A DNA stretch of 11,270 nt from Elusimicrobiaceae bacterium (GTDB taxonomy: Bacteria; Elusimicrobiota; Elusimicrobia; Elusimicrobiales; Elusimicrobiaceae), in the NCBI GenBank assembly GCA_017647245.1, contig JAGCKY010000112.1, positions 1 through 11,270 on the forward strand. Direction: 5' to 3'. The notes beneath the pieces were generated by a model. The model was not told where the DNA came from, did not search any database, and worked only from the letters and a program-made list of their open reading frames with translations. This document shows positions 6,430 to 9,152 of this stretch, piece after piece. A program made the translations under genes and the position numbers. Position 1 is the first letter of the stretch. The number at the start of each line of letters is the position of its first letter.

Positions 6430-7380
6430 ATGAAACGCCTGATTGCTTGTCTGCTGCTTATTGCATGCTGGGGTCCCGTGGCCGCAGAGCTGCCCTATGT
6501 CACTCAAGACAATATCTTGCGTTCATTTCTGTGGGACGAATTTACACAACTGCCTAAGGAAGAACGTCCCAAAGTAGGCGTGGCTTTATCTGCCGGGGGC
6601 GTGCGCGGCTTTGCACACGTGGGCGTGCTGGAAGTATTGCACAATGCCGGCGTACCCATTGATATGATGGCAGGCACTTCCATGGGGGCGATTGTCGGCT
6701 CTTTATATGCCGCCGGAGTACCCATTGATAAAATGTGGGAAATCGGCAATCACATTACCATTAGTACCATTACCCCTGATTTTAATGTAATGGGTATTTT
6801 GCGCTTTGTATTTTTAAACAGACTTCCGTCATCTAGCAATCTGCAAACCTTTATTCACGAACAATTAGGCGATATGCAATTTGAGAATATGCCTATTCCG
6901 TTTGCTACCGCCGCTATGGACGTAAAAACGGGCGAGCAGGTGGTATTTGATTCAGGTCCGTTGGATATTGCCGTACGCGCCAGCATGAATTTACCCGGTG
7001 TATTTGAACCTGTGCAATACCGCCACCGCTATTTGGTAGACGGAGCCGTAGTAAATTATTTACCTGTTAATCTTGTAAAAAACAAAGGCGCTGACTATAT
7101 CATTGCTTCTATTACTCCGTTAGATTTCGCTTCCGAAACTCCCCATTCGGTAGCTGCTTATTTAATGCGTGTAGGCGATGTGCGGGCCGCGGCCATGATT
7201 CAGGAATCGGCCCAAAAAAGCAATTTTTCTATTGAAAACCGGGTCGTTAATACAAGCACTTTAGAACTAAACAAATTACCCTTTGCCGGAGAAGTAGGGA
7301 TTCGCTCGGCCAACAGAGCATTAGACGCCTTGCAGGAAGACCTACTGTTATTTGCGATAGATGACATTATTAAGAAATAA
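6430..7380 (+). CDS. Exported patatin-like phospholipase (RssA/NTE-type)
   Basis: A 316-residue patatin-fold lipid acyl hydrolase. Residues 1-19 are an export signal (MKRLIACLLLIACWGPVAA). LIAC at 10-13 could be read as a short lipobox, so lipidation is possible but less likely than normal cleavage. The patatin core starts at about residue 48: oxyanion-hole loop SAGGVRGFAHVGV (54-66), nucleophile elbow GTSMG with S84, and the dyad partner D204 in VDGAVV. The spacing is that of bacterial RssA-like proteins. The catalytic residues are intact, so it should be active. Cytoplasmic RssA-type proteins lack an export signal, so this one probably acts on envelope phospholipids. It lies 16 bp after the TolC-like gene, with no strong ribosome binding site, and its end overlaps the TPR gene by 20 bp. 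Confidence 0.93.
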   Translation: MKRLIACLLLIACWGPVAAELPYVTQDNILRSFLWDEFTQLPKEERPKVGVALSAGGVRGFAHVGVLEVLHNAGVPIDMMAGTSMGAIVGSLYAAGVPIDKMWEIGNHITISTITPDFNVMGILRFVFLNRLPSSSNLQTFIHEQLGDMQFENMPIPFATAAMDVKTGEQVVFDSGPLDIAVRASMNLPGVFEPVQYRHRYLVDGAVVNYLPVNLVKNKGADYIIASITPLDFASETPHSVAAYLMRVGDVRAAAMIQESAQKSNFSIENRVVNTSTLELNKLPFAGEVGIRSANRALDALQEDLLLFAIDDIIKK

Positions 7381-8320
7381 ATTTTTATTACTGATTTTAT
7401 GTTTTCTGACGGTACTGCCAATGCAGGCGGGGCTGTTTGGCATTTCTTTTAAAGACCGCAAGGAATATGTGCAAGCACGCGATTTATATGAACAGGGCCA
7501 ATACGAACAAGCCGTTACCGCATTGTCTAATTATATTTACAAAACAAAAAATATAAAACGCCGCGAAGCACGCGCCTACCGTTTATTGGGGTTGAGTTAC
7601 GAACAACTAAACCGCCCCGAAAAAGCATTGGAAGTGTATTTGGAAGCGTTGGAAGTTCACGATGACAATGTACCTTTATAAATAGCCGCCGCCGCGTTGT
7701 ATCAACGTACGCAACTCATAGACCAATCCATTGAGCTATACAACCGCGCATTGGAATTAGACTCCCACAATACCGAAGCCTTATCCGGCCAAGCCGACAA
7801 TTATATCCGCATGGGTTTTTATTCCAAAGCCCGCCAGTATTACAATCAGTTTTTCACGCTCAATCCACAGGCATCCGCCCGATACCGCGCGTCTTATGCT
7901 TATGCTTGTTTAAAACAACGCGACTTTGAAAAAGCTTTTATCAATATCACGATGGCCAAAACAGAGGACCCTTCGCAGGAAGCTTATTGGCTGCTCAGCG
8001 CGCACGCTTATAAAGGGCTGAGGCGCATGGCAGATGCGCTGGCTGATTTGGAAATAGCCATTTGGCTTGCACCCGATAATGCCGAGCTCAAAGCCATTAG
8101 AACGATTTGGTTATACCAACAAAAAGAGTCTGCCGCTTCTTTGCAAGCCGCACGTGAAATGCTCAAAGAAGACCCCCAAAACGAACTGGCGCTGTTTATG
8201 GTATACATGAATTTAAAAGACAGCAAACCCAAAGAGGCCCGCCGCGCCTTGCAACAGATTGTGGATTTGAACAATGATTCTTTTGCCCACCGCGTCGCCA
8301 AAAAGATTTTAGGAAAATAA
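7361..8320 (+). pseudogene. Exported TPR-repeat protein gene interrupted by an in-frame TAA
   Basis: Two reading-frame segments in the same frame, 7361-7681 and 7682-8320, are separated only by one TAA at 7679-7681. Read through, they form one protein of about 318 residues. It has a signal peptide (MTLLRNKFLLLILCF..., cleavage near MQA-G at about 23) followed by about eight tetratricopeptide repeats, for example ARDLYEQGQYEQAV, LGLSYEQLNRPEKALEVY, IDQSIELYNRALELDSHN and MGFYSKARQYYNQFFTLNP. The stop falls at the start of a repeat (VPL-stop-IAAAALYQRTQ). A Tyr codon there would restore the helix with one base change (TAT to TAA). Restarting in the second half is doubtful: the TTG at 7697 has no ribosome binding site and that part has no signal peptide. 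The rest of the frame is clean, so this is a very recent mutation, an assembly or sequencing error, or readthrough. TPR proteins scaffold protein complexes. This is the last gene of the operon. Confidence 0.82.
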
Positions 8321-8393: not shown

Positions 8394-8421
8394 TTGACTT
8401 GTTTTTTTTTTTTGGTATACT
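8394..8421 (+). promoter_or_regulatory. Pilin gene promoter with a T12 tract in the spacer
   Basis: TTGACT (8394-8399) and TATACT (8416-8421) are both one base from consensus and are separated by 16 nt. Twelve of those 16 bases are an uninterrupted T run (8402-8413). The expected start near 8428 gives a leader of about 90 nt. Slippage in the T run would change the -35/-10 distance, which is the classic layout of a phase-variable promoter. Confidence 0.75.
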
Positions 8422-8466
8422 TTCTTTGGAGCCGGATTTGCTATAGAACGTTTTTTGCTTCTGGCC

Positions 8467-8487
8467 CCTTGCGATTTATTCGCAAGG
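8467..8487 (+). promoter_or_regulatory. Hairpin in the 5' leader of the pilin mRNA
   Basis: CCTTGCGA (8467-8474), loop TTTAT and TCGCAAGG (8480-8487) make a perfect 8-bp stem, followed by four T residues and an AT-rich stretch up to the ribosome binding site GAGAGGAG (8503-8510). It could be a weak attenuator or a stabilising 5' structure. It does not itself cover the ribosome binding site. Confidence 0.5.
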
Positions 8488-8516
8488 TTTTAGAAATTTT
8501 TAGAGAGGAGAATGTT

Positions 8517-9152
8517 ATGGAAGAAAATAAAAAGGATATAAATAATACTGTCATCCTGAAAAGTCTTTGTTCAGGATCTCATCCGCTTACTCAGAAACGA
8601 CGAGGTCCTGAGCAAAAACACCTCAGGACGACAGATTCTTTTGGCTTTACCCTTATTGAATTATTAGTAGTCGTGCTTATCATCGGCATTTTGGCCGCGA
8701 TTGCCCTGCCGCAGTACAGAAAAGCGGTGATGAAAAGCAGATTTACGCAGCTTAAAGTATTGGCACACGGTTTGGCGCAAGCAGAGGAAGTTTACTACTT
8801 AGCCAACGGATACTATGCCACTAAACCGGAGGAATTGGATATACAACTTCCCGGCGGTACACCTAGCCCAAACCACGAAAACATTTATAATTATGACTGG
8901 GGATATTGCTATACAGAGATCAACGATTCCAAAGATACAAGTAAAAATCAAGTTGCTTGCCAAAATACAGATATAGGCATGGAGTATCAGGTCCGGCTAA
9001 TACATTCCACCGAGGGAAATCGGCAAACTTGCGCGACAACTAATACAGATTTGTCTTCTGTGCAAAATCAGATATGTAAAGTCGAAACAGGGCGGACCAC
9101 CTATACCACCCGAAACACTTCTGCCAATTACACCACTTGGAGATATAAATAA
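8517..9152 (+). CDS. Type IV pilin-like (pseudopilin) protein with an unusually long prepilin leader
   Basis: A 211-residue prepilin. The processing site is clear: G43 then F44-T-L-I-E48, followed by the hydrophobic helix LLVVVLIIGILAAIALPQY, as in type IVa pilins and type II secretion pseudopilins. A prepilin peptidase should cut after G43 and methylate F44, leaving a mature protein of 168 residues. Mature Glu5 (E48) is present. The C-terminal domain has four cysteines (GYCY, VACQ, QTCA, QICK), likely two disulfides. The ATG at 8517 has GAGAGGAG 6 nt upstream; the open frame extends back to 8394, but that region is promoter and leader. Leaders are usually about 5-25 residues; here 29 of the 43 leader codons come from a palindromic DNA element (8548-8634). 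No assembly ATPase or peptidase gene is nearby, so this is an orphan pilin locus. Confidence 0.93.
   Translation: MEENKKDINNTVILKSLCSGSHPLTQKRRGPEQKHLRTTDSFGFTLIELLVVVLIIGILAAIALPQYRKAVMKSRFTQLKVLAHGLAQAEEVYYLANGYYATKPEELDIQLPGGTPSPNHENIYNYDWGYCYTEINDSKDTSKNQVACQNTDIGMEYQVRLIHSTEGNRQTCATTNTDLSSVQNQICKVETGRTTYTTRNTSANYTTWRYK
8548..8634. repeat. 87-bp double-hairpin palindromic element inserted in frame in the pilin gene
   Basis: Two 33-bp arms, 8548-8580 and 8602-8634, are inverted copies matching at 26 of 33 positions, with most differences being transitions. They flank a 21-bp centre. Each arm is itself a hairpin: TCCTGAA/TTCAGGA on the left, and GTCCTGAG/CTCAGGAC on the right. The termini are CTGTC and GACAG. 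The length, 87 bp, is exactly 29 codons and contains no stop in the pilin frame, so the reading frame is kept. The layout is that of short palindromic repeats that invade coding regions, such as the Rickettsia palindromic elements. The TCATCCTGA-type end also resembles, from memory, dispersed repeats seen in several bacterial genomes. No target-site duplication is evident. Confidence 0.8.

Follow-up and report, generated by a model that had tools for sequence, protein, structure and literature searches.

Organization of the prepilin locus

The window, that is, the whole 11,270-nt stretch analyzed here, is contig C104 of an Elusimicrobiaceae MAG of 1.117 Mb (188 contigs, 78% complete). When named genomes were scanned with the patatin gene of the window, 19 loci were obtained; two come from an 'uncultured bacterium', and the named organisms are Elusimicrobiales, Elusimicrobiaceae, Elusimicrobium or Candidatus Avelusimicrobium. 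The window carries a type IV prepilin gene preceded by a promoter-like sequence, a structured 5′UTR and a ribosome-binding site, with an 87-nt palindromic element lying between the start codon and the GFTLIE motif (Table 1). Residues 43-64 of the encoded prepilin match the Pfam N_methyl family (7.2e-07), and GFTLIE provides the G or A at −1 and the E at +5 that characterize such proteins. A prepilin peptidase family protein (PF01478) is encoded in the host genome (G000:C146:7085-7432) and, judging from the motif, would cut off the leader of the window prepilin. Further upstream, a TPR protein gene is present as two same-frame ORFs (7361-7681 and 7697-8320) with a stop codon between them.

Table 1. 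Features of the prepilin gene and its 5′ region in the window
Feature	Position	Strand	Details
Sigma-70-like promoter	8394..8421	+	TTGACT 8394-8399, T-run, TATACT 8416-8421; read from sequence
5′UTR with two conserved hairpins	8428..8487	+	GGAGCCGGA/TTCTGGCCCC and CCTTGCGA/TCGCAAGG, then TTTT
Ribosome-binding site	8502..8511	+	AGAGAGGAGA, 5′ of ATG 8517
Type IV prepilin gene, 211 aa	8517..9152	+	leader, 42 residues ahead of G43
87-bp palindromic element, REP-like dimer, in leader coding region	8548..8634		fold z −6.6; genomic copies
First REP-like hairpin	8550..8580	+	tag TGTC, stem ATCCTGAA/TTCAGGAT, tail CTC
Second REP-like hairpin, inverted to first	8602..8632	-	tag TGTC, stem GTCCTGAG/CTCAGGAC, tail CTC
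GFTLIE prepilin cleavage motif	8643..8660	+	G codon 8643-8645; predicted cut after G, 8645/8646
Predicted mature pilin	8646..9149	+	translation

The first-pass annotation of this DNA had described the element as a palindrome adding exactly 29 codons to the prepilin leader. The palindrome is real, with a folding energy of −39.6 kcal/mol that was equaled by none of 200 dinucleotide shuffles, and its 87 nt contain no in-phase stop; the exact codon count is not general, as leader dimers in the host genome span 84-120 nt by one fixed rule, under which the window core measures 85 nt. The MFE structure is a single nested long hairpin, and either half alone fits a REP-like hairpin with the layout TGTC-stem-loop-stem-CTC, the tags facing outward and the tails inward. 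A true start downstream of the element, which the annotation named as a refuting outcome, is very unlikely: no in-frame ATG, GTG or TTG besides ATG 8517 occurs from this first ATG to the cleavage codon, which, together with AGAGAGGAGA ahead of it, makes the start at 8517 credible on sequence grounds.

The 5′UTR hairpins start right after the −10 box, and the second is followed by a T-rich stretch, an attenuator-like arrangement. The two-hairpin element (8428-8487) is present in 14 of 120 pilin 5′ regions of the host genome, across which the second hairpin shows some compensatory pairs. Rfam returned no match in the window at the gathering score; at E up to 10, it returned 12 weak matches, all under gathering scores and several of them to microRNA families.

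Repeat copies in the host genome

We distinguished two classes of repeat, class I being the window type and class II having the form CGTCAT...ATCCA with a loop of 6. Class I gave 36 DNA matches in the host genome, merged to 26 places, and class II gave at least 57, merged to at least 40 places (40 of 47 first-look candidates were scored, so this set is possibly incomplete). Among the matches listed, 54 of 66 places (22 of 26 for class I and 32 of 40 for class II) lie at most 450 nt 5′ of a pilin motif, these distances being taken from protein alignments and off by some nucleotides where gapped; C6 and C112, for example, read 9 nt by alignment, but direct dimer measurement puts them in the UTR, at 27 and 25 nt. 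Six of the 12 places away from pilins are within 110 nt of a contig end, and the others are on C59, C133, C99, C63, C52 and C68. The C133 copy adjoins a small GIY-YIG gene. On C59, a repeat dimer lies directly 5′ of a Flp-type pilin gene, by its look a member of another pilin family (L230 13379-13454, G000:C59).

A rule-based hairpin search, independent of similarity, of 251,262 bases of the host genome found 34 hairpins, compared with 1-3 in each of five shuffled sets. Thirty-one of them are within 400 nt 5′ of pilins, 15 of the 30 pilins in this 251-kb sample having such hairpins; of the other three, two form the C59 dimer and one lies inside a 1042-aa ORF and is chance-like. Apart from that last hairpin, repeats of this kind occur within coding sequence in the sample only in pilin leaders. 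The further copies for which the first-pass annotation had proposed to search are numerous, with 26 class I places and a second repeat class in addition. An invader of the host genome independent of pilins was dropped as an explanation, given the 31 of 34 hairpins and the 54 of 66 places, among the matches listed, that lie 5′ of pilins.

Repeats upstream of the start codon outnumber those in leaders, and copies lie either 5′ of the ribosome-binding site or in frame just ahead of the cleavage motif. Measured directly, leader dimers are 9-15 nt from the motif, and UTR dimers either 25-44 or 111-269 nt. All three reading phases are represented among the 15 leader dimers (7, 7 and 1), indicating that the DNA, and not the peptide, is what is shared; the element is hence a DNA repeat and not a conserved protein sequence. 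That all 15 leader dimers are open follows from the leader-calling procedure, and only 5 of 38 UTR dimers are open in the phase of their pilin.

Leader lengths in the pilin family

A search of the host genome with the window prepilin gave 147 matches, some to the element alone, from which 120 distinct motif-bearing pilin genes were extracted. Their leader lengths are bimodal, with 87 genes at 3-11 aa, none at 12-24 and 33 at 25-63 aa. By a strict rule, 57 of the 120 have a short leader and no repeat, 30 a short leader and a repeat at most 400 nt upstream, 21 a long leader with a repeat in it, and 12 a long leader without a strict hit, several of the latter containing palindromes that lack the tag. 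When long leaders are chosen by length alone, 30 of 33 fold at z<−3, vs none of 33 body windows of the same genes; long leaders are rich in palindromes. The possibility that the true starts lie after the element, or that the long leader is a conserved protein feature, is very remote: N-terminal REPs may often be misannotations in other genomes, according to the parts of Di Nocera et al. (2013, PMC3733652) consulted, and three long leaders (L009, L094 and L116, retained among the 33) probably do start later, but 30 of the 33 have a Shine-Dalgarno-like motif ahead of the chosen upstream ATG, the other three being cut by contig ends, and neither the absence of another start in the window nor the three reading phases fits this idea.

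In L097 and L070, an ordinary start (MKNR-AFTLI and MKK-AFTLI, respectively) is followed by a palindrome and then by a second motif, GFTLIE, and the first motif copy is altered in other long leaders (AFTQI in L021 and L009, AFTF in L130). Different palindromes occupy one leader position in different paralogues: L016 and L130 have in common a 5′UTR repeat, the ribosome-binding site, ATG AAA AAA CAA and the mature part (71%), while their leader palindromes differ.

Many pilin genes appear as mosaics of 5′ modules and bodies

We compared 5′ modules, defined as promoter, 5′UTR, repeat, ribosome-binding site, start codon and leader, with the mature bodies that follow them, using pairs of paralogues and not same-site orthologues. 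L067, with a 56-aa leader, and L093, with the 4-aa leader MKNR, encode mature proteins that are 85% identical and have no 5′ match, DNA similarity starting at the motif codons; this pair supplies, by paralogue, the comparison with an insert-free leader that had been called for. The opposite case is provided by L038_+1500 and L038_+710, which have 99% identity across the 219 nt preceding the motif and 29% in the mature protein, and by L024 and L055 (93% in the 5′ part, 27% in the mature protein). In the best 40 5′-similar pairs listed, identity is 82-99% over 139-257 nt, and mature identity is 21-41% in 39 of them, L078/L089 being the only pair with a similar body (73%). Among the pairs listed, 33 have a mature identity of at least 55%; 27 are testable on the 5′ side, the other six involving L026 or L095, whose fetched 5′ ends are too short, and 9 of the 27 have no 5′ match while 18 have a match of 38-152 nt.

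Shared modules commonly, though not always, start at the −35 region or slightly 5′ of it, and many stop 0-3 nt short of the motif. The window conforms to this pattern, its promoter being the left part of a 5′ module common to other pilins and its motif region the place where modules and bodies meet across the family. Past the motif, the pairs are about as alike in their coding regions as the family at large (74-82% identity over the first 75 nt, falling to about 45% beyond 90 nt). The joint lies at the cleavage codon or within about 75 nt after it, a resolution set by the roughly 80% identity of the whole family in this stretch.

On a weakly supported tree of mature parts, the UTR-repeat state is scattered like shuffled labels (35 changes vs a shuffled mean of 35.8), and the long or short leader state takes 24 changes vs a shuffled mean of 29.1, with 1 of 200 shuffles as low. 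This clustering, along with the 18 of 27 similar-body pairs with some 5′ match, indicates that a part of the pattern is inheritance with the body. Overall, these comparisons show that a 5′ module and the mature body behind it often differ in their history.

Repeats and pilins in related genomes

The set of relatives comprised 36 other genomes of the host genus, and the window element was matched in 9 of 61 genomes, the host included. A congener, G010 (99% complete, 40 contigs), repeats the host pattern of repeats at pilin 5′ ends: in 393 kb with 62 pilins, 23 of 27 hairpins are at most 450 nt 5′ of pilins, vs 1-3 hairpins in shuffled sets, and 14 of 18 long leaders (one, of 121 aa, doubtful) have a hairpin inside. 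Many of the G010 leader palindromes differ from those of the host genome. In the closest relative, G035, 339 kb contained 31 hairpins, of which 20 lie within 400 nt 5′ of a pilin and 11 do not; G036 had 24 in 229 kb, split evenly between the two locations (12 and 12), and none of 9 G036 pilins has a repeat inside its reading frame. Shuffled sets for these two genomes gave 0-2 hairpins by a looser rule. The element is 10-20 nt ahead of the motif in 6 of 7 loci inspected in G035, G019 and G004, and class I copies without a pilin on the fetched locus were found in G016 (5 of 5), G036 (4 of 4) and G033 (3 of 5).

Pilin matches numbered 67 in G036, 55 in G029 and at least 150 in G010, indicating that the size of the family varies within the genus. 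The G010 figure, in a genome of 1.5 Mb, refers to matches with the N-terminal part of the pilin and comes from scoring 150 of 237 first-look candidates. The G035 pilin nearest to that of the window (54% identity, C14:15395) has another leader. Same-site orthologues were sought at ten KBL loci (L147-L156) and at patatin/TPR loci (L199-L217) of relatives, and nearby pilins, where present, are oriented otherwise than in the window.

Origin and persistence of the element

Bacterial palindromic repeats are usually viewed as intergenic litter with rare in-frame accidents. Here, in a genome with more than 100 pilus-protein genes, small palindromes are found mostly at the front ends of these genes, and many of the front ends seem to have been exchanged regardless of the body. 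We consider it probable that the window element is a CGTC-REP-like inverted-repeat dimer and part of a 5′ module that can be exchanged among the members of a very large pilin gene family. The repeats appear to travel mainly with such modules, joined to bodies near the cleavage site, expression and cleavage being predicted from the DNA. Most copies would have spread when paralogues recombined within their conserved N-terminal coding block and not by fresh insertion each time, with a few insertions of different repeats into short MKK- or MKNR-type leaders also required. As prepilin peptidase would remove the leader, any open leader should leave the same mature N-terminus, which would make the leader the one coding place where repeats survive and the 5′ modules interchangeable. 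Against this reading stand the 57 of 120 pilins that have neither a repeat nor a long leader, and the repeats away from pilins in G035, G036, G016 and G033.

A less likely, though possible, alternative is that the repeat is a selected regulatory RNA hairpin of the pilin 5′UTR, acting in stability, translation or attenuation, and that copies in leaders retain this structure, their translation being incidental. The preferred spacing of UTR dimers, the nearest of which end 25-44 nt before the motif, is consistent with such a role, as are the promoter-like sequence 5′ of the repeat in L112-type modules and in the window, the other conserved UTR hairpin pair, found in 14 modules, and the strong folding of the leaders. 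However, about half of the pilins are without any repeat, and the three reading phases and several repeat types suggest that no fixed RNA is maintained.

The first-pass annotation had proposed that the leader is a safe harbor for invading repeats. This holds for the leader but is not supported as random invasion plus tolerance, since the repeats cluster at pilin 5′ ends, keep preferred distances from the ribosome-binding site or the motif and are shared within longer modules; more than the chance arrival of a generic invader at a harmless site is involved. In its plain form, which has mobile palindromes landing anywhere and being retained within genes only in the disposable leader, the idea is doubtful. 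It accounts for the single, chance-like hairpin inside any other ORF of at least 100 aa in the 251-kb sample, for the different palindromes at the same leader position (L016 and L130) and for the part of the repeats of relatives that is away from pilins. A generic invader would nevertheless be expected in most intergenic regions, whereas nearly all sampled hairpins are at pilin 5′ ends, many of them untranslated, and the shared modules extend beyond the repeat.

We regard as improbable a purely ancestral trait, in which repeated duplication of a single pilin that already had a repeat in its 5′ end accounts for everything. Near-identical 5′ modules, the somewhat clustered leader state and the 5′ sequence common to 18 of the 27 testable similar-body pairs could be so explained; 5′ ends of 82-99% identity on dissimilar mature parts, the reverse case and different palindromes at one leader position speak against it. 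As a sole cause, it would need mature parts evolving extremely fast and 5′ ends remaining static.

The repeats of this genome are bound to a single gene family, and whether one of them can be coding seems to depend on where the protein itself is processed, so that the persistence of repeats in genes becomes a testable question. Expression modules and bodies of a surface filament appear to be reassorted genome-wide in a little-studied gut lineage. In Neisseria pilE/pilS gene conversion, the conserved pilin N-terminal block is likewise the recombination joint. The silent Neisseria cassettes are promoterless, unlike most genes here, which have their own start and ribosome-binding site, and it is the 5′ modules that here differ from the bodies.

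Relation to known palindromic repeats

The available text of Di Nocera et al. (PMC3733652) describes CGTC REPs in five phyla, with intragenic copies, and defines them by a tag CGTC (or TGTC/CCTC), an 8-9 bp stem starting AT, a loop of 4-5 and a tail that is mostly CCA; Elusimicrobiota is outside the five phyla named there. The repeats described here resemble them in being tagged hairpins with 8-bp stems, in forming inverted dimers, in having intragenic copies and in the lack of a dedicated transposase among the genes found. TGTC is at both outer ends of the window element, and CGTC is in most class II hairpins; class II stems and the first stem of the window element begin AT, the second stem of the window element GT. 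The loops differ, being 9 in the window type and 6 in class II, as does the unpaired tail of the window type (CTC, vs CCA in class II). With loops outside 4-5, we name the element REP-like and do not count it as a CGTC-tagged REP. A further difference is that CGTC REPs are predominantly downstream of coding regions in the same source, whereas the present repeats are 5′ of one gene family. It also states that N-terminal intragenic REPs may often be extragenic, with translation starting later, and equates RPE-4 and RPE-6 with CGTC REPs.

Like Rickettsia palindromic elements, the leader copies are palindromes translated in frame. Unlike those elements, which are in many different proteins, they are confined to one protein family, in a segment expected to be removed; in the 251-kb sample, they occur only in prepilin leaders, one chance-like hairpin aside. 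The location of a repeat in a disposable N-terminal segment had been put forward as a distinct idea, and it has a precedent: the Yersinia palindromic sequence/RU-2 is part of the predicted signal peptide of YPO1552, according to the sections of PMC2229807 consulted, which likewise places a repeat within a cleavable N-terminal segment. The Yersinia case is a single locus at which the repeat helps form the signal, unlike the dozens of paralogues here, in which the leader need only stay open. Pilins are mentioned in Endomicrobia, with no family expansion in the text seen of PMC8809381 and PMC11257099. A literature search covering few subscription papers turned up, in the texts retrieved, nothing on REPs within prepilin leaders, on gut-Elusimicrobia pilin families or on a link between GIY-YIG and REPs.

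A candidate mobilizer

A RAYT/IS200 transposase was rejected as the mobilizer because no PF01797 was found in the host genome (78% complete). CGTC REPs also have no associated transposase gene. A GIY-YIG nuclease is a possible candidate, as a lead only. A family search of 22 congeners and the host genome found 8 small GIY-YIG genes, 5 of which have a repeat at most 150 nt away, vs none of 13 loci in the order's other family, and one further such gene, in G035, was found through its repeats. It is conceivable, though doubtful, that these elements are part of an intragenomic pilin-shuffling system, in which dispersed pilin genes, numbering from 120 to more than 150 in some genomes, trade 5′ modules and bodies close to the codons of the cleavage site. 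REP-like palindromes would mark module ends or serve as breakage sites, and small GIY-YIG nucleases may cut them. If so, the removable leader would hide the joint from the mature pilus. Stand-alone small GIY-YIG genes near REP-like hairpins are at L240 4397-4992 (G035), L285 and L343 (G018), L291 (G004), L293 (G010) and L297 (G000:C133).
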